A program made the translations under genes and the position numbers. This document shows, piece by piece, positions 34,392-42,694 of a stretch of DNA of 50,810 bases. The DNA lies in NCBI GenBank assembly GCA_003584005.1, contig QXHL01000021.1:1-50810 (forward strand), given 5' to 3'. Source of the stretch: Alicyclobacillaceae bacterium I2511 (GTDB lineage Bacteria; Bacillota; Bacilli; Alicyclobacillales; Alicyclobacillaceae). The notes below the pieces were generated by a model, which searched no databases, was not told the DNA's origin, and worked only from the letters and a program-made list of their open reading frames with translations. Every line of letters begins with the position of its first letter. Positions within the stretch are counted from its first letter, which is position 1.

Positions 34392-35363
34392 TTGGCTGAG
34401 GATGGGGAACGGATGGAAGGCGTGCGTGAGTCTGTGATAGGAATAGAGGCCAAGCCAGGGGACACCCCAATAGACGCGAATGGGGTGCAGGGGAATTCCT
34501 TGCAGGACGTGTTACAGGATGAGTCGCTTGTGGACTCTGGGGTGCATTTTTCAGGGGTGGCGGCATACGAGGAGCGTGTGTCCCCCAAACTTCAGGCGTT
34601 GGGGAAGGCAATTGCCAGGTTTGGTCGTCTCAAAGTGGTAGCCAAACAGGCGGAGCAACTGAATCGTGGCGAATTGAGTAAACTTTTGCAGGAAATCAGC
34701 TTGGGAACCGATGCCCTTCGCGAACAGGCGGGGAGTGCGTTGGGGGAACTTGAAGTGTTTCAGATTGCGGAAAGCGAAGCTGACCAAGTGGAATGGACAA
34801 GGCGGTTTATAAAAGAATGCGCAGCATTGGGACGGACGGTGGAAGGCGAATATCCACAATTCAGGATATTTCCTGTCGATATAAAAGTAGATTTGACGGC
34901 AGAGACCGCGCAAATGGGTCGGTCCACGGTGCGTGCGATGCATCCGAAGGCTTTGGCCAGTTTGGTGGACAGTGCGGTGCAAAAACTTGAGCGAGAGCGG
35001 TTTAATGGGCCACAATTTCTGCGTGCGATGATGCGCGCTTATGAGGTCCTGCGTGCAGAAATGAGCACGCAGGAAGCCGTAAATGCCAACAGGAACCGCC
35101 CAACCGACGTTCCCCTGCGACAGATTCACGCGCTTCTTGCATTGCGGGTGGGGACAACGGCAAACGGCTACCCGCTAAGTCAATTCGCATTTGATATCTA
35201 TCGCTTGCGCCGCGATATGGATCTTGTGATTGAAGGCAACCGTGTGGTGTTCTTAGAGACGCGCAAACCGAGTCTGGCCATTATACTGCCATTACCGGGT
35301 GGACAAAAACAAATTCTTGGCTCTGTGGACGTTGTTCCACTAGGAGATGAAAGGAATGTGTGA
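34392..35363 (+). CDS. Unrecognised first gene of a BREX-like cassette
   Basis: A 323-residue soluble protein that I do not recognise. The N-terminal 60 residues are acidic and probably flexible. The middle (about 65-135) is helical, possibly coiled coil (KVVAKQAEQLNRGELSKLLQEISLG). The C-terminal 150 residues contain a compact pattern (PLSQFAFDIYRLRRDMDLVIEGNRVVFLET) that looks like a winged-helix or wHTH-type domain. TTG 34392 has AAGGAGGAG 6-7 bases upstream. Its end overlaps the next gene, so it is coupled to the ATPase genes. It may supply target recognition or act as an adaptor; this is inference. Confidence 0.75.
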   Translation: MAEDGERMEGVRESVIGIEAKPGDTPIDANGVQGNSLQDVLQDESLVDSGVHFSGVAAYEERVSPKLQALGKAIARFGRLKVVAKQAEQLNRGELSKLLQEISLGTDALREQAGSALGELEVFQIAESEADQVEWTRRFIKECAALGRTVEGEYPQFRIFPVDIKVDLTAETAQMGRSTVRAMHPKALASLVDSAVQKLERERFNGPQFLRAMMRAYEVLRAEMSTQEAVNANRNRPTDVPLRQIHALLALRVGTTANGYPLSQFAFDIYRLRRDMDLVIEGNRVVFLETRKPSLAIILPLPGGQKQILGSVDVVPLGDERNV

Positions 35364-36585
35364 TAATCGGGCGGGATTTTATCGTTGCCCGGACGCTACC
35401 TTGTTGACGGATGAGTCTGTTCGGGAGACATATGTCGATGTAGGTGGGATGGAAGAGTTTTGGCTGAAATGGTATTTGCGTGGATTTGTGGACCGTGGGG
35501 CGGGAAAAATTAAGTTTGTGCAGGCGCGGGTGGGGGCAGGGAAAACACATCTTTTACGTCACTTTGTAAGCACGGCTAGTGACGAAGGGTATGCAACCGT
35601 GTTTGTGGACGCAACAGCGCAGCGGATGGGTGCAATTGATGAACTGTATCGGGCCGTTGCTGTTCAGGCTCCATGGGAGAAAATCCTGGATGGTTGTGCC
35701 ACCTCGATTGTTCACAACGACCTTGGGTATAACGATTTCAACGGTGAACCCGCGGATTTCCGTCGTTGGGCGGAAACAACGCGCGGTCGCAGTGGACCCT
35801 CATTGACGGCTGATTTGCGCGACGCGACCGACAAGTGGGTGCGTGCAATGGACATTCACTCAAACTGGCGAGAGCCATTGCGGACGTGGGTTTTGCGTCA
35901 CATCACAGGCGAAGCTACAGATGTGGCCATGATTCGGAACTGGTTCTGCGGGGAACGAATGTCTGTGCGGGAGCGCAAGACATTCGGTGCGGGGACAAAA
36001 TTGGATCGACGAAACGGACGTGCTTGGCTGTTGTCATTGGTGACGCTGCTGCGGGCCACAGGGTACAAGGGACTGGTCCTGGCGCTGGACAATGCAGATG
36101 TGTGGGCGCGCTCCACACGGGTGGAAGGAATTCCTTATTATACACGGTCCGCGCGAGACTACACCTACGAAATGCTGCGGGAACTGATTGACGAAAGTCA
36201 TCACGCCCCACACCTGTTCGCACTGATTGCGGGAGATGTCAACCTGTTTGAAAATCAAAAGACGGGTGTGCCGTCCTATCCGGCATTATGGCAACGCATT
36301 GGGTCTGAAATTGCGTTGGCACAGGTCAATCGATTTGCAGACCTGCTGGATTTGGATGCACTGTGGCGATCCGATGGTAGGGGTGGGGCACAAGTCGCGT
36401 CCCGTTGGACCGAGCTATGTGATGGAATTGGGTTACGTGAGAATCACTTTGTACATGAAGATGTTTTCAGTCATGTGGAGGGTGCTGCACGCGAAGATAG
36501 CCTTGGGCTGGATTGGGGTCTGGCCCGTCGGACTGTGCACCATGTTTTGACAGGGTCTCAGATGGGGGGGAATGAACATGCCTGA
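35356..36585 (+). CDS. P-loop ATPase of a BREX-like cassette (BrxC/BrxD-related)
   Basis: A 409-residue ATPase. The Walker A motif is VGAGKTHLL at about residues 60-68 in the context KIKFVQARVGAGKTHLLRHF, and Walker B is probably LVLALDNADVWAR near residue 240, with Asp-Asn in place of Asp-Glu. The layout of a short N-terminal lead, an immediate P-loop and then long helical regions resembles the ATP-binding proteins of BREX clusters, though similarity to BrxC or BrxD is partial. ATG 35356 is 9 bases after AGGAG; ATG 35347 directly abuts it. It overlaps both the previous and the next gene by a few bases. Confidence 0.72.
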   Translation: MCDNRAGFYRCPDATLLTDESVRETYVDVGGMEEFWLKWYLRGFVDRGAGKIKFVQARVGAGKTHLLRHFVSTASDEGYATVFVDATAQRMGAIDELYRAVAVQAPWEKILDGCATSIVHNDLGYNDFNGEPADFRRWAETTRGRSGPSLTADLRDATDKWVRAMDIHSNWREPLRTWVLRHITGEATDVAMIRNWFCGERMSVRERKTFGAGTKLDRRNGRAWLLSLVTLLRATGYKGLVLALDNADVWARSTRVEGIPYYTRSARDYTYEMLRELIDESHHAPHLFALIAGDVNLFENQKTGVPSYPALWQRIGSEIALAQVNRFADLLDLDALWRSDGRGGAQVASRWTELCDGIGLRENHFVHEDVFSHVEGAAREDSLGLDWGLARRTVHHVLTGSQMGGNEHA

Positions 36586-37807
36586 GGCGCGGATGGTCAT
36601 CGAAGGGTTGCGTTCTGGGGTGCCATACCGCGAATTGGCAAAAACGGTCGCGTTTGGCCGGGGACGGTACATCGAAGTTGTCGAACACTTGTTGGAAGGG
36701 GCGGCACAAGGACGCCATGGGAAAGAACGCTATTATTTGGTGCGGGCCAACTATGGGGAGGGAAAGACGCATTTCTTGCATTCACTATGGGGTCGGGCTG
36801 AAGACCGAAACTTCGTCGTAACTATGGCTGCCATCAGCCGTGAAACGCCGCTCGACCGATTGGATTACCTTTATCCCAAGTTGATGGAAAATACGTTTGT
36901 TCCAGGTAGCTCTCTCGCCGGATTGGATGCCATTGTTGGACGGGCTTTTGCAGAACCAGGAATCCTTGCGGAGACGAGAATGCTGGAATTGTCCCCGCGA
37001 GTCATGACGGTGGTAGAAAACATTGTGGCACAAAATGAAGGTTATGAGGAGTTGCTTGCAGATCTCTCGGGCTCATTTCTCTCATTGTCAGATCTGAAAC
37101 GAGTTCATCGACTAAACTATGGTAAACCCTTGAAACTTGAGCGCAGTTCGCTTCGCGACGAGGGGATGCAGTATGTTCGACTCTTAGATTATTTGATTCA
37201 CAAGGCGGGTTATGCGGGCTGGTTAATCTTATTTGATGAGGTTGAATTAATTGGAAAACTGGGGAAGGGGCAGCGGAGCCGAGCCTATGCCAACATTGGC
37301 CAATTTTTGACGGCGAACTTGGAACACACGGTGACGGTGTGGGCGCTGGCTGCTAATTTTCATGCGGACGTCTTAAATGCCCGTCAAGATAGGGAAGTAG
37401 CTCCCCTTTGGCTGCAATCTCGACCGAAAGAAGCGGAATTGGCCCCCTTGTGTGTGCAGGGCATTGATGCCTTAATGGAAGCAAAACGGCTCAATCCGCT
37501 GAGTGAAGCAGATATTCGCGAGTTGATTGCGCAGATGTATTTGCTTCATCAAGAGGCCTATGCGTGGCACGCACCCTTCTCGGCAGCGGAACTTTACGAG
37601 AAGGTGTGGAAGTTTTCACCGCTGCGTGACACCAAGTTGCGGACCTGGGTTCGCTTGACGCTTACGGTGCTCGATGTGTGGTTTCAGTATAACTGTGACC
37701 CTGTCATTTCACAGGTGGACGCATTGCTGGAAGCCAATCTGGAAGAGGACGACTTAGGGGCAACGATGACAGAACCGCCGCTCATTGTGAGAAGTCCCTT
37801 GTTCTAG
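36578..37807 (+). CDS. BrxD-like P-loop ATPase (DUF2791 family)
   Basis: A 409-residue protein with the order typical of BrxD/DUF2791. It begins with an N-terminal RSGVPYRELAKTVAFGRGRYIEVVEHLLEGA, then Walker A in VRANYGEGKTHFLHSL, then a stretch like FVVTMAAISRETPLDRLDYLYPKLM and Walker B in GWLILFDEVELI (Asp-Glu intact). In BREX and Pgl systems this family is an essential accessory ATPase of unknown mechanism. ATG 36578 is about 8 bases after a G-run; ATG 36572 is the alternative. It overlaps the upstream ATPase gene and precedes the BrxL-like gene by 52 bases. Confidence 0.85.
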   Translation: MPEARMVIEGLRSGVPYRELAKTVAFGRGRYIEVVEHLLEGAAQGRHGKERYYLVRANYGEGKTHFLHSLWGRAEDRNFVVTMAAISRETPLDRLDYLYPKLMENTFVPGSSLAGLDAIVGRAFAEPGILAETRMLELSPRVMTVVENIVAQNEGYEELLADLSGSFLSLSDLKRVHRLNYGKPLKLERSSLRDEGMQYVRLLDYLIHKAGYAGWLILFDEVELIGKLGKGQRSRAYANIGQFLTANLEHTVTVWALAANFHADVLNARQDREVAPLWLQSRPKEAELAPLCVQGIDALMEAKRLNPLSEADIRELIAQMYLLHQEAYAWHAPFSAAELYEKVWKFSPLRDTKLRTWVRLTLTVLDVWFQYNCDPVISQVDALLEANLEEDDLGATMTEPPLIVRSPLF

Positions 37808-37859
37808 AAGTCGCCTGCAGTGGCACTTGCGACGGTGTGAGAAGGGAGGAATTGCGGCC

Positions 37860-39932
37860 ATGTCTCAGCCGGGTGGGGATGTGAGGGACCGAGTTCGAGA
37901 AGCTTTTGAGGGGGTGTATGTCGAACAGGAAAATTGCTCAGCGGATAACTTTGGCAGTCAATTGCCGCGGTTTCTTGTGGATTCCCTGGTGGGTGCCTAT
38001 GGATCGGCCAGAGCAGAAAAATTGATTTTTAAACAGTTTCCATCTAATCGCAATCGCCAGCTGCTGCGCCACCAACTGATGCATGTGGGACAACTCGACA
38101 TCCTTGATTTTCTTGAAGTCACCATCAATCTTGAACAGGGGCGTGAAGTGGCCCACTTGGTTGCTTTTCAAGTGGAATCGGCTGAGCTGAATCCTGAATT
38201 GCTCGTAAAGTATCCCAATTTATTGCAAGGGGGACTGTGGGGGCGAGTCACCTTGCTATATGACCGCAATGCGGTACAAGACATGGACAATGAGCCCACA
38301 TCGCGAGTGTGGATTGACAATTTCGTGCCCCATCAGGCAACCATAGATCTGCCGTCCTGGGTTGCCCGCCGGGAACAGTTTTCTACAAATGAGTGGATTG
38401 AACTTCTGCTTCGTTCGGCAGGCTATCATCCCGAGCGGATTCTTGGGGACCAACCGCGGCGGCGTCGGTGGCTGTATCTTGCGCGACTGTTACCGTTAGT
38501 GGAGCGCAATCTCAACATGGTTGAACTCGGTCCTAAAAATACCGGCAAGACCTATCTGCTACGCAACCTATCCCCCCATGCCTTTTCCCTTGCTGGTGGA
38601 CTTGCGACAGCCGCGAATCTCTTTGTGAATCTGAATACCCTGCGCCCCGGGCTTGTTGCAAGTCGCAAAGTTATCATTTTTGATGAAGTGGCACATGTCC
38701 GTTTCAGCTCGGATTCGGGAGCAGTTTCGCTGTTAAAGGACTTCATGGAAAGTGGCCAGTTCAGCCGTGGTAGGGCTGCACACAGTGCCGATGCTTCCCT
38801 CGTCTTTCTCGGGAACCTTGAGGTGTTGGGTGCGCAACCGAGTTCTCGCTATGCGCACTTATTTGAACCATTTCCGCCGGAACTGCGCGATGCGGCGTTG
38901 CTGGACCGCATGCATGCGTTTATTCCGGGATGGGAAATGAAAAAACTGTCTGCTGCGGATCTGGAGCCGGATTATTCGCTGGCGACAGATTATTTTGGGG
39001 AGATACTGCTTTCCTTGCGCGACTTGCCCTATGGGCCGCATTGGCGGCAGGTACTAAAAAGCCATCCGTATCAATCGGAGATGACACAGCGCGATCAGAC
39101 GGCGGTGGAAAGAGTGGCGCGGGCTTTCTTTAAACTGGTGTTTCCCAATGGCCACGTGACAGAGCCAGAGGCAAGCGAAATCTTGGCGTTTGCGGGGGAA
39201 CTTCGGCAGCGCGTACAAAGGCAGTTAGAGCAGATGGAGCCGGGGGAATTTGTGCCGCATGCCATCGGATTTTCGAATTTGGCGACGAACGCGGTGGCGC
39301 GGCCCATCGATTTTGCTGGCCGGCCGGGGCTTGATGCCATCGATAATCGTCTCAACTCACACCCTTCGGTGGGAGAGGTCACAGCACTTACGGCGCTGTC
39401 TGCGGGGGATAGAATAGTCGGTGGGGATGTGCAGGTTATCCAAGCTACGGTCATTGACGGGGGCCGTGGCCGCGTACGTTTAACGGGGCAGCATGGTTCC
39501 AGCATGCGCCACTCTCTGGATGCGGCCCACGATTACCTGCTGAAAAATGCGGTGCCGCTGGGAATTGAAGTGGATAGAGTGCGCGCTGCGGATCTTGCCG
39601 TTCATCTCCTGTGGATTCAACGCGGGCGTGAAGGGGCGTCGGCGGGACTCGCCTTTTTGCTCGCGATGGCCTCAGCCTTGGTCAATCGTCCATTGCGACC
39701 AGCACTGGCAGTGACGGGAGAGGTTTCGCTGCACGGGGACGTATCCGCTGTTGGGGGTGTGGCACAGATGTTGATTGCCGCACACCGCCACGGGAGGCGG
39801 GTGATTCTGCTGTCGGACGAAAATCTGAGTGAGGTAACGGAAAAACATTTGCCAAAGCTTGTACTGGCGGACTTAAAAATTATACCTGTCAGAACGGTCA
39901 GGGATGCTTTGAAGCTCGCGTTTGAGGATTGA
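37860..39932 (+). CDS. brxL: BrxL-like AAA+ protein with Lon-like C-terminal domain
   Basis: A 690-residue protein with the BrxL plan. The N-terminal half carries FLEVTINLEQGREVAHLVAFQ. The AAA+ domain has Walker A GPKNTGKT (224-231) and Walker B KVIIFDEVAHVRF, with FMESGQFSRG following. The C-terminal domain resembles Lon protease, with the serine at S594 in GASAG and GEVSLHGDVSAVGGV. The Lon catalytic lysine, expected 43 residues later, is M637. BrxL proteins act in phage restriction as DNA-binding ring ATPases. ATG 37860 follows GGGAGGA. It is the last gene of the four-gene cassette. An 8-bp tandem repeat starts at its stop codon. Confidence 0.9.
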   Translation: MSQPGGDVRDRVREAFEGVYVEQENCSADNFGSQLPRFLVDSLVGAYGSARAEKLIFKQFPSNRNRQLLRHQLMHVGQLDILDFLEVTINLEQGREVAHLVAFQVESAELNPELLVKYPNLLQGGLWGRVTLLYDRNAVQDMDNEPTSRVWIDNFVPHQATIDLPSWVARREQFSTNEWIELLLRSAGYHPERILGDQPRRRRWLYLARLLPLVERNLNMVELGPKNTGKTYLLRNLSPHAFSLAGGLATAANLFVNLNTLRPGLVASRKVIIFDEVAHVRFSSDSGAVSLLKDFMESGQFSRGRAAHSADASLVFLGNLEVLGAQPSSRYAHLFEPFPPELRDAALLDRMHAFIPGWEMKKLSAADLEPDYSLATDYFGEILLSLRDLPYGPHWRQVLKSHPYQSEMTQRDQTAVERVARAFFKLVFPNGHVTEPEASEILAFAGELRQRVQRQLEQMEPGEFVPHAIGFSNLATNAVARPIDFAGRPGLDAIDNRLNSHPSVGEVTALTALSAGDRIVGGDVQVIQATVIDGGRGRVRLTGQHGSSMRHSLDAAHDYLLKNAVPLGIEVDRVRAADLAVHLLWIQRGREGASAGLAFLLAMASALVNRPLRPALAVTGEVSLHGDVSAVGGVAQMLIAAHRHGRRVILLSDENLSEVTEKHLPKLVLADLKIIPVRTVRDALKLAFED

Positions 39933-39960: not shown

Positions 39961-40501
<541 letters not shown>

Positions 40502-40653: not shown

Positions 40654-40761
40654 AATAGCATGAAAATAATGGGCGTGTCGTGTCTTCATTCAGGGTCCGT
40701 GTTATAAGCATGAAAGGATTATATGTATAATTTTATATTTTGATATTGAGGAGGATTGTTC

Positions 40762-41742
40762 ATGCATACACGATTTGAGCAACTCTCTTTTGATTTCATA
40801 CACACGTCTAGTGTTTATTCCAGGAAAAATTTGGTAAATATAGAAAACATGGCTAGCCCAAGTATAGAAACGAATTCGGACTGGAGTCAAGACGGGTTTA
40901 ACGAACTTATTGATGCAATTAGGACGGCTAGAAAAAATAATAGACCTGTGATTTGGTCTATGGGAGCCCATGTTATCAAAAATGGTATGTCGCGATATAT
41001 TATTGACCTCGTGCGAAATGACATTGTGACACACGTAGCTGGTAATGGTGCGTCAAGCATCCATGACTTTGAATTAGCTTTATTAGGTGCAACTTCAGAG
41101 GATGTCGCAGGGTCTATTGAGGATGGGTCATTCGGAATGTGGGAAGAAACAGGCCGATATATGAACGAAGCTATTCAATTAGGGGTTGCGCGAGGACTTG
41201 GATATGGTGCCGGGTTGGCTTCGTATGTTTCCGAAAATGAATCAAGGTTTCCATATCGGAATGATTGCGTCTTTTATCAAACCATGCAGTTAAATGTACC
41301 ATACACCTGTCACATTTCCATTGGCACTGATATCATTCATCAACATCCTAGTGTGAATTTTGAGGCCTTAGGTGCTGCGAGTGGAAAGGATTTCGAACTG
41401 TTTTGTGCAAGCGTAGCACAACTTGAAGGGGGCGTATTACTTAATTTTGGGTCCTCCGTGTCAGGACCCCTGTTGTTTATTCGTGCGCTTTCCGTGGCTC
41501 ATAATCTTGGGCACTCAGTTCAAAATTTTGTGGCAGCAAACTTTGATATTCGCCCTTTTTCTCCAACAGCGGTCTTTCAAACCGGAGACGTTCCATCATG
41601 GCTGGAGCTGGCGTTTGCACGTTTGCCTGCCTCGTTAAATGCTCAGGGATATTCGTTTAATGGGTTACATCAGGATACGATTCCTGCATTGTATTCTCAG
41701 TTAAAAAAGGGTTTTAAGGAGATGTCCGTAAATGAAAAGTGA
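40762..41742 (+). CDS. Deoxyhypusine-synthase-like protein, paralogue 1
   Basis: A 326-residue protein whose core resembles the deoxyhypusine synthase/NAD-binding fold, judged by eye. It has PVIWSMGAHVIKNGMSRYIIDLVR, THVAGNGASSIHDFELALLGATSEDV, FGMWEETGRYMNEAI and LLNFGSSVSGPLLFIRALSVAHNLG. True deoxyhypusine synthase acts on eIF5A, absent from bacteria, so the substrate must differ. The eukaryotic catalytic-lysine region (around EAVSWGKI) is not recognisable. ATG 40762 is 7 bases after GAGGAGG. It overlaps a second copy by 11 bases. The cluster context suggests a step in sugar metabolism, perhaps NAD-dependent; this is inference. Confidence 0.65.
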   Translation: MHTRFEQLSFDFIHTSSVYSRKNLVNIENMASPSIETNSDWSQDGFNELIDAIRTARKNNRPVIWSMGAHVIKNGMSRYIIDLVRNDIVTHVAGNGASSIHDFELALLGATSEDVAGSIEDGSFGMWEETGRYMNEAIQLGVARGLGYGAGLASYVSENESRFPYRNDCVFYQTMQLNVPYTCHISIGTDIIHQHPSVNFEALGAASGKDFELFCASVAQLEGGVLLNFGSSVSGPLLFIRALSVAHNLGHSVQNFVAANFDIRPFSPTAVFQTGDVPSWLELAFARLPASLNAQGYSFNGLHQDTIPALYSQLKKGFKEMSVNEK

Positions 41743-42694
41743 TTTCTTTGCTAAGGTTCAAGTGTATCCGGTTGCAGGACGCCTTCATTACACTCAGGTG
41801 TCTGCGCAACCTACACCACCATCAGTGGACTGGCAACCGGATGGGTTTGAAGATTTTATTGATAGAATGGTTCAAGCGAGAAAATTGAATGCACCTGTTA
41901 TTGTATTTCTTGGTTCCCGGGTGTTACAAGTCGGATTGCAACCTTATCTCATTGATCTGGTTGAGCAAGGCTGGGTTACACACGTCGCGACAACTGGTGC
42001 GGCGAATGAGTATGACATCGACGTGGCGATGCGCGGTGTGACAGATCTGAGTGAGTCTTTTTCTGACGACCTATCTCATTTTGGAATGTGGAAAGAGACA
42101 GGGGACGTTGTTCATAAGGCACTTGCTTTGGGGTTTCACGAGGGAAAGGGGTATGGTGAGAGTATTGGGGAGTATATTACTCTACATCAAGAACAATTCC
42201 CACATCGAGAAAAATGTTTGATTTATCATACATATTTAAAAAATATTCCCTATACATGTCATATCACGATCGGTCTGGATGAGGTTCACGTGCACCCTGA
42301 GGTCGACTTTGCCGTCTTAGGGGGGAGTAGCGGCATTGATTTTAAAATATTTTGTAAAGGAATTACTCGACTGGAAGAAGGCATTTTTTTAAACTTTGGA
42401 TCCACTGTAACGGGTGTCGAAGTATTTTTGAAAGCGCTATCGATTGCAAGGAATTTGGGGTATACGGTTAAACACATTACCACTGCAAATTTTGACGTGG
42501 TTCGGTTGGGAGATTATCACCAAAAGGTCGGATATGAGGATTGGGAGTACTACTACCGTCCAAGGAAAAATGTGGTACACAGGCCAACAAGCTTGGGTGG
42601 TAAAGGATTTCATTTTGAGGCGGAACATCAACTTTCAATACCCACAATTTGGAGGGAGTTAACCTCAAGAGGAGGCGAACTTCGTGGATCATAA
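41732..42694 (+). CDS. Deoxyhypusine-synthase-like protein, paralogue 2
   Basis: A 320-residue protein clearly related to the preceding one. APVIVFLGSRVLQVGLQPYLIDLV, THVATTGAANEYDIDVAMRGVTD, FGMWKETGDVVHKAL, IPYTCHITIGLDEVHVHP and FLNFGSTVTGVEVFLKALSIARNLG all align segment by segment. The shared YTCHI-IG and HP residues are candidates for catalysis. It differs at the HDFE position of paralogue 1 (here EYDID), so the two may form a heteromer with separate roles. ATG 41732 has AAGGAG 9 bases upstream and overlaps paralogue 1. It overlaps the kinase gene downstream by 11 bases. Confidence 0.65.
   Translation: MKSDFFAKVQVYPVAGRLHYTQVSAQPTPPSVDWQPDGFEDFIDRMVQARKLNAPVIVFLGSRVLQVGLQPYLIDLVEQGWVTHVATTGAANEYDIDVAMRGVTDLSESFSDDLSHFGMWKETGDVVHKALALGFHEGKGYGESIGEYITLHQEQFPHREKCLIYHTYLKNIPYTCHITIGLDEVHVHPEVDFAVLGGSSGIDFKIFCKGITRLEEGIFLNFGSTVTGVEVFLKALSIARNLGYTVKHITTANFDVVRLGDYHQKVGYEDWEYYYRPRKNVVHRPTSLGGKGFHFEAEHQLSIPTIWRELTSRGGELRGS

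Follow-up and report, generated by a model that had tools for sequence, protein, structure and literature searches.

A four-gene BrxL cassette of Alicyclobacillaceae bacterium I2511 is built on a conserved gene triad that recurs beside several kinds of DNA motor

The contig QXHL01000021.1 of Alicyclobacillaceae bacterium I2511 (assembly GCA_003584005.1, genome G000 in our set), whose 50,810 nucleotides are called the window here, carries at positions 34392–39932 four genes on the plus strand that we name A, B, C and D. They encode a protein of no known family, two BrxD-like ATPases and BrxL. We found that the core unit is not this four-gene cassette but the A-B-C triad, whose lineages are tied to particular DNA motors. 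The best reading of the A-B-C-BrxL arrangement is that of an undescribed system. It would be a stand-alone and probably acquired operon: A, B and C would act as a loader that puts the motor BrxL on invading DNA, a proposal to which we give about an even chance. The cassette probably has a role in defence.

The four open reading frames (ORFs) overlap or nearly touch, and the cassette contains no further genes. Gene A (34392–35363, 323 amino acids), the signature of the module, begins at a TTG codon with AAGGAGG close on its 5' side. It has no Pfam, PADLOC or NCBIfam family above cut-off, and a profile search of the PDB returned mostly designed helical bundles (best E value 0.0023) and nothing convincing. 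In 18 aligned homologues of A, residues G152, P161, P185, F204, L242, L249, Y260, R271 and G304 are invariant. Gene B (35347–36585, 412 amino acids) overlaps A, and gene C (36572–37807, 411 amino acids) overlaps B. Gene D (37827–39932) encodes 701 amino acids if read from its TTG; the in-frame ATG at 37860, directly 3' of GGAGGAATTGCGGC (37845–37858), is probably the likelier start. The layout is that given by the first-pass annotation, which had also left the 323-residue product of A unrecognised. Its assignment of D as BrxL-like was borne out as well: D matches BrxL_ATPase (PF13337, 1.3e-95), Lon_C (1e-32) and BrxL_N (2.9e-13) in Pfam and BrxL in PADLOC (5.5e-122), exceeds the NCBIfam equivalog cut-off for BrxL (TIGR02688, 371.6 versus 329.3 bits), and matches the solved BrxL structure 8EMC (9.9e-73). 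BrxL is an MCM-like AAA+ ring motor with a C-terminal Lon-like domain. Consensus promoters occurred at the level of shuffled sequence (3 versus a mean of 4.1); terminators were somewhat above it (10 versus 6.5, standard deviation 2.3), with no clear operon terminator.

B and C both match the BrxC_BrxD family (PF10923, 3.8e-24 and 9.1e-25). The best PADLOC match of each is BrxD and the second is SngB of the Shango system (2.7e-8 and 1.2e-9, both weak). Because their scores of 74.5 and 64.1 bits lie far under the NCBIfam equivalog cut-off for BrxD, which is 350, we regard them as BrxD-like and not as BrxD; a Deinococcus plasmid encodes a BrxD-type protein of the canonical kind, which spans PF10923 nearly end to end (3.3e-95). 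B and C are related to each other (hhalign probability 94% over 211 columns) and are a diverged pair of BrxD-sized relatives. The first-pass annotation named the family rightly for both, but B, for which a BrxC/BrxD-like layout had been proposed, is not BrxC-sized. Both also show AAA_16 and nSTAND similarity below the Pfam cut-offs, and a PDB profile search with C gave no match at E≤0.1.

The loader reading arises mainly from the unequal ATPase motifs of this pair. In the window, C has an intact Walker A (GEGKTH) and a Walker B of ILFDE, whereas B has the Walker A GAGKTH and D-N in place of D-E in Walker B. Across loci, C retains GKT or GKS in 78 of 79 cases (the other reads GEQ) and the Walker B DE in all 76 that could be resolved. 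The Walker B glutamate of B is missing in 83 of 84 resolved loci, and only L050 has DE. Of 85 B proteins, 76 have GK or GR in Walker A, the nine exceptions being L144 and all eight members of a CRISPR-linked clade described below. From these motifs, C is predicted to be the active subunit of a loader and B its non-hydrolysing partner. Such an asymmetry is comparable to that of ORC/Cdc6-like or clamp-loader-like assemblies.

The searches for the module covered genomes of this phylum, viral contigs and plasmids. C was used as query first and had matches in 6 of 61 genomes, the window genome included, which led to A. With profiles of A, matches came from 14 of the 398 genomes in a phylum-wide draw, from 6 of 59 in the order, and from 4 of 20, 5 of 63, 30 of 113 and 42 of 154 in four other classes, in sets that overlap. 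We examined 96 regions (56 and 40); places with A in G725, G743 and G640 lie outside this sample. B adjoins A in 85 of the 91 A-bearing loci, and B and then C follow in order in 79; the other 12 are at contig ends, are broken, or have over-long or mislabelled ORFs (L136, L214, L217, L223). Order in 79 of 91 loci puts the arrangement far beyond chance, and the intergenic gaps are below 60 nt between A and B in 76 of the 79 and between B and C in 78. Over the 74 other aligned loci, identity to the window proteins falls to 17% for A, 23% for B and 25% for C, which shows that the gene order has survived great divergence. The first-pass annotation had asked whether the gene order is conserved; it is, and 23 of the 79 also have BrxL after C. 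What that annotation did not see, in describing a cassette of four genes, is that the triad is the core and is found with other motors and within CRISPR loci as well.

BrxL follows C in these 23 loci with a gap of −74 to +25 nt (the −74 belongs to a contig-end piece, L044). They lie in 22 genomes of eight families (codes f1, f2, f95, f110, f143, f151, f180 and f188), and the 21 other copies long enough for the comparison are 35–57% identical to the window D. Three further cases in which only part of the cassette was called are G046, where it is on two contigs (L011, L058), L212 and L217. In a 75-row tree of the triad, all 23 BrxL loci fall on one side of a 42-row branch (SH-aLRT 99, by a quick method). 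Several lineages within this branch have no D, and BrxL presence needs 9 changes, versus a mean of 20 after shuffling. A tree built from BrxL alone places the window copy in one group (98/99) with five of the other six ABC-linked copies first sampled; L045, the remaining one, has a long branch and an uncertain position. The BrxLs that adjoin PglZ (L069 of G193 and L068 of G508) are apart from the window group, with L078 (100/100). All 22 ABC-linked copies compared retain both ATPase motifs, GKT/S in Walker A and DE in Walker B. The Lon dyad was read off the E. coli Lon row, and we took it to be a serine and the lysine 43 residues past it. The window D retains the serine and has methionine at the lysine position. 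Both residues are present in 4 of 23 ABC-linked long Ds (L011, L012, L015 and L213), one or both are changed in the remaining Ds, and both are changed in L068 and L069. Two BrxLs from Gemmataceae, at L018:6644-11935 and L019:1073-6378, also have the dyad intact; a large TerB protein adjoins the former and a HerA/AAA protein the latter. As no PglZ was found among seven scanned neighbours, these are apparently BrxLs outside BREX. Excerpts of PMC12839542 describe the LonP domain of BrxL as lacking the dyad, from which L011, L012, L015, L213, L018 and L019 differ. Upstream of the ABC-BrxL cassette in L208–L210 lie an SNF2-like helicase, recognised by hidden Markov model (HMM), and a 643-aa protein, which are possibly a second defence system.

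An automatic rule assigned the motors beside the 91 loci as BrxL in 23, superfamily 1 (SF1) helicases in 17, superfamily 2 (SF2) helicases in 8, CRISPR in 7, SNF2 in 3, BrxHI-like in 3 and no recognised motor in 30. The SF1 helicases (AAA_11/AAA_12 with a zinc ribbon, two of them scanned against Pfam) form a 15-locus cluster, in which the helicase follows C on the same strand in 14 loci and precedes A in L137; two more, in L205 and L222, were found by HMM before A. In 8 loci an XPB-like SF2 helicase gene is found upstream of A in divergent orientation; two of these helicases were scanned. SNF2 genes are near L124 (convergent), L144 and L195, which are in separate parts of the tree. A BrxD-like ATPase and an Lhr-like helicase stand directly upstream of A in L214, L216, L219, L220 and L221, the helicases being 29–32% identical to a scanned Deinococcus helicase. 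The order at these loci is BrxD-like ATPase, Lhr-like helicase, A, B, C, which makes three BrxD-family ATPases with one helicase. Three of the five were counted by the rule among the 30 without a motor, and the BrxHI-like protein of L223 is a 120-aa piece. In a 44-row tree of the triad, the SF1 group, the SF2 group and a group with a helix-turn-helix (HTH) protein as neighbour each form one clade (100), and the CRISPR label needs 4 changes.

The rule found cas genes at seven loci. Two are type I-D: L046, with Cas10d, Csa1, Cas1 and an array of at least 44 repeats, and L120, with Cas10d, Cas7d and Cas3. Type I-B is represented by L048 (Cas3b, Cas7b) and L121 (Cas8b, at least 46 repeats), and type I-A by L049 (Cas8a). 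L047 has only Cas6 before the contig ends, and L133 has cas genes by the rule, with only A whole. In L046, L048 and L120 the triad lies between the effector and the adaptation genes on the same strand, and by the ORF calls the end of C is separated from the same-strand cas1 that follows it by 5 nt in L120 and 11 nt in L121. The CRISPR clade has 8 rows (100), six of which have cas genes; the others are L118, on a 3.1-kb contig, and L124, whose 5.4-kb contig carries an SNF2 gene and lacks cas genes. In addition, genes for Cas6 and Cas8 (TM1802) and one of a Cas3 cluster lie near L010, a member of the window's own clade, across some 1.1 kb of unscanned sequence. The triads in type I loci (L046, L048, L049, L120 and L121, and L047 beside cas6) are homologous to that of the window and have the same order, on the cas strand. 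They differ in that B also lacks Walker A and BrxL is absent; the motor would be Cas3. Small DUF4282 proteins adjoin the triad at L046:6893-7249 (by similarity) and at L049:9783-10148 and L120:9773-10174 (by Pfam), and our literature search found no paper on this family. Between C and cas1 of L048, at L048:3651-4356, is a small two-gene pair, one member of which matches PDC-S09, a candidate defence family.

We then compared the cassette with known systems. The cassette resembles the Shango system (SngABC) in the SngB-type similarity of B and C, which is weak and ranks behind BrxD, and in the ATPase-plus-helicase logic; it differs in having BrxL in place of the helicase, two ATPases, and an A with no TerB match. 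TerB was not found in A by Pfam at E≤1 or as a PADLOC family, and hhalign to one TerB protein gave 0.6%; nor was a helicase family of the SngC type found among the scanned window neighbours. As in BREX type 2, where BrxD stands with BrxHI, a BrxD-family ATPase is coupled to a DNA motor, but here there are two unequal ATPases, one without the catalytic glutamate, together with A, and BrxL replaces BrxHI. With BREX types 1 and 4 the cassette has in common a BrxL with BrxL_N, AAA+ and Lon-like C-terminal domains and the lack of a separate helicase. It differs from them in having A and the B/C pair, while its flanks gave no BrxC, PglX or PglZ in single-sequence searches. In the window genome, whose assembly is 98.36% complete, the PglZ model PF08665 had 0 matches (it was found in 7 of 23 genomes searched), and the type 1 PglX model NF033452 gave only an 18.2-bit match below cut-off inside a 1543-aa ORF, the models of other types not having been run genome-wide; NF033452 exceeded its cut-off in 2 of 9 genomes. 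In the window genome PF10923 matched only B and C, in a search that did not include the DUF6079 and DUF499 models. Because PglZ and type 1 PglX were looked for and not found, we class the cassette as a variant apart from BREX. The first-pass view of a self-contained BrxD-like and BrxL-like cassette without methyltransferase, PglZ or helicase is upheld, and the recurrence of the same four genes shows that it is not a broken BREX locus. The other suggestion made there, a modification enzyme encoded elsewhere, found no support in this genome.

The triad does not regularly sit beside pglX or pglZ, as a BREX fragment might. When 4 PglZ, 3 PglX and 1 BrxC sequences were searched against the 96 regions, the only matches were BrxC and PglX in L057, themselves among the queries, although single-sequence searches miss distant relatives. 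At L057:12828-19000, upstream of an ABC triad with no motor, are divergent genes for BrxC-PglY and PglXI, and the contig has a PglZ match about 6 kb beyond the region examined. In other carriers BREX genes occur away from the contig of the triad (PglX together with PglZ in G046, PglX in G571, PglZ in G217), which indicates that the systems can coexist. The survey in PMC12839542 was anchored on BrxC and PglZ, so a system without both would escape it. Neither the A-B-C triad nor the A-B-C-BrxL cassette is described in the available parts of the literature searched (PMC12839542, PMC10164562, PMC12458937, PMC12669027 and PMC7988955; few preprints, supplements outside the search).

The evidence for insertion comes from G001, the sole congener in the order search (82% complete), which has no match to A. 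Its contig C162 aligns to the window from 39982 rightwards at 80–84% identity. To the left of that point C162 carries a 396-codon frame of a Gfo/Idh/MocA oxidoreductase (PF01408, 1.3e-12). The window keeps only about 139 bp of this gene (39982–40120, plus strand) at the right edge of the cassette, which indicates that most of it was replaced by the cassette or by an accompanying event. The remainder is absent from the whole window by alignment, and after the remnant a further 0.18 kb or so has been lost relative to G001. The cassette was probably inserted at this site and horizontally acquired. This reading rests on the interrupted gene, since composition is weak evidence: the G+C content is 0.537 in the cassette and 0.446 and 0.429 in its flanks, but it is 0.52 at 20–28 kb of the window. 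The contrast is only local, and we rejected it as a mark of foreign origin. No convincing terminal repeats were found at the cassette edges.

In the proposed mechanism, A, B and C would form a DNA-bound ATPase loader, in which C would hydrolyse ATP, B would bind it without hydrolysing it, and A might be an adaptor that holds B and C together, recognises the substrate, or both. The loader would open or position the MCM-like ring of BrxL (D) on foreign DNA, and BrxL would then translocate and block replication, with no need for methylation, PglZ or a nuclease. This model combines the unequal B/C pair and the change of motors with the literature on BrxL and BrxD. According to PMC10164562, BrxL is a DNA-dependent ATPase ring resembling MCM, and phage restriction in BREX depends on its ATPase site; PMC12839542 classes BrxD as an ORC-Cdc6 AAA+ protein and proposes that it loads or activates BrxHI. 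From these sources and the sequences we infer the formation of the complex, the loading step, the DNA target, the anti-phage or anti-plasmid role and the sparing of self DNA.

Several observations, with the local nature of the G+C contrast, weigh against this model. Neither A nor C has a relative in the viral contigs (B was outside that search), and A has none in the plasmids, where C has 4 weak BrxD-type matches. The 30 of 91 loci without a recognised motor include some at contig ends, but L014, L055, L194, L196–L198, L200 and L201 are motor-less with kilobases of flank. The motor labels are unclean on the 75-row tree (BrxL 9 changes, CRISPR 3, SNF2 3, SF1 2). AlphaFold models of A and C, made from few sequences, are too poor (pLDDT 43 and 45) to speak for the fold of A or an ORC-like fold of B and C. 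The scanned neighbours in the window are metabolic and not defence genes (sugar-binding protein, PTS, SIS, ROK), and PADLOC gave no match on the three downstream ORFs to which it was applied.

The main rival, and a serious one, is that the triad with its motor is an accessory module for DNA repair or replication restart, a loader plus helicase borrowed by CRISPR and BREX, with defence not its main role. The partners are generic helicases, A is frequent in some classes (30 of 113 genomes in one, 42 of 154 in another), and some SF1-linked loci have flanking genes in common (clusters c9, c10, c12 and c23). Furthermore, the flanks of many SF1, SF2 and other non-CRISPR loci are presumably metabolic, judged by their first residues, which counts for repair and against the loader model. 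On the other hand, A is patchy elsewhere (6 of 59 in the order, 14 of 398 in the phylum draw), the triad shares its strand with the cas operons of types I-A, I-B and I-D in which it lies, its partner BrxL is known from phage restriction, a gene is interrupted at the edge of the window cassette, and L052 adjoins type III restriction genes as L057 adjoins BREX genes. On balance we consider repair rather unlikely as the main role. Less likely again is a role in STAND-like signalling: A, B and C would then be a common sensor or switch, not a loader, and would activate the effector next to them. A constant core with varying effectors is a pattern also known for sensors, and here the genes next door vary while the triad stays; the sub-cut-off AAA_16 and nSTAND similarity of B and C points the same way. 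However, the recognised partners are DNA motors and not stand-alone nucleases or toxins, and the best family of B and C is BrxC/BrxD, of which BrxD is ORC-Cdc6 AAA+ in the excerpts of PMC12839542.

We also considered that the triad feeds protein substrates to BrxL acting as a Lon-type protease. The Ser-Lys dyad in the D of L011, L012, L015 and L213 agrees with this, as does that of L018 and L019, the BrxLs apparently outside BREX, but the window D has methionine at the lysine position, the dyad is kept in only 3 of 22 aligned ABC-linked long Ds (L075 included; 4 of 23 with L011) as against 22 of 22 for the ATPase motifs, and the sister modules adjoin helicases and not proteases. A protease function is therefore very unlikely. 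We consider it extremely improbable that the cassette is what remains of a decayed BREX locus, is a part of one that has moved, or makes common use of a BREX modification enzyme from another place in the genome, even though D is above the BrxL equivalog cut-off, G046, G571 and G217 carry PglX, PglZ or both on other contigs, and the motor-less L057 adjoins BrxC and PglX. The same four genes occur in 23 loci, their flanks lack PglZ, PglX and BrxC except in L057 (by single-sequence searches), the window genome has no PglZ match or type 1 PglX above cut-off, and the PglZ-adjoining BrxLs (L068, L069) and L078 are apart from the window group (100/100). For the window this explanation is largely refuted, within the limits of the models run and of an assembly that is 98.36% complete.

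Beyond the cassette, at 40756–42694, the window contains two tandem, non-identical proteins of the GSU2086 family (351 and 296 bits). They are followed by a gene that we take to resemble a carbohydrate kinase and by a SIS protein; together these genes are perhaps a sugar pathway.

If the loader model holds for the window cassette, there would be a defence machine made of BREX-like parts that is independent of DNA methylation, and a small system of four proteins in which to ask how BrxL reaches DNA. A broader proposal, which we make tentatively and as possible rather than probable, sees in A-B-C a motor-loading module of general use in prokaryotic immunity. Its adaptor and its ATPase pair, one active and one inactive, would serve at least five kinds of DNA motor, namely the MCM-like BrxL ring, SF1 helicases, XPB-like SF2 helicases, the Lhr-like helicase with its BrxD-like ATPase, and Cas3 in three type I subtypes, with SNF2 less surely. 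Innate and RNA-guided immunity would then share one unrecognised DNA-loading step, and the presence of the same loader in type I CRISPR operons would suggest that a step between recognising the target and engaging the motor has gone unnoticed.

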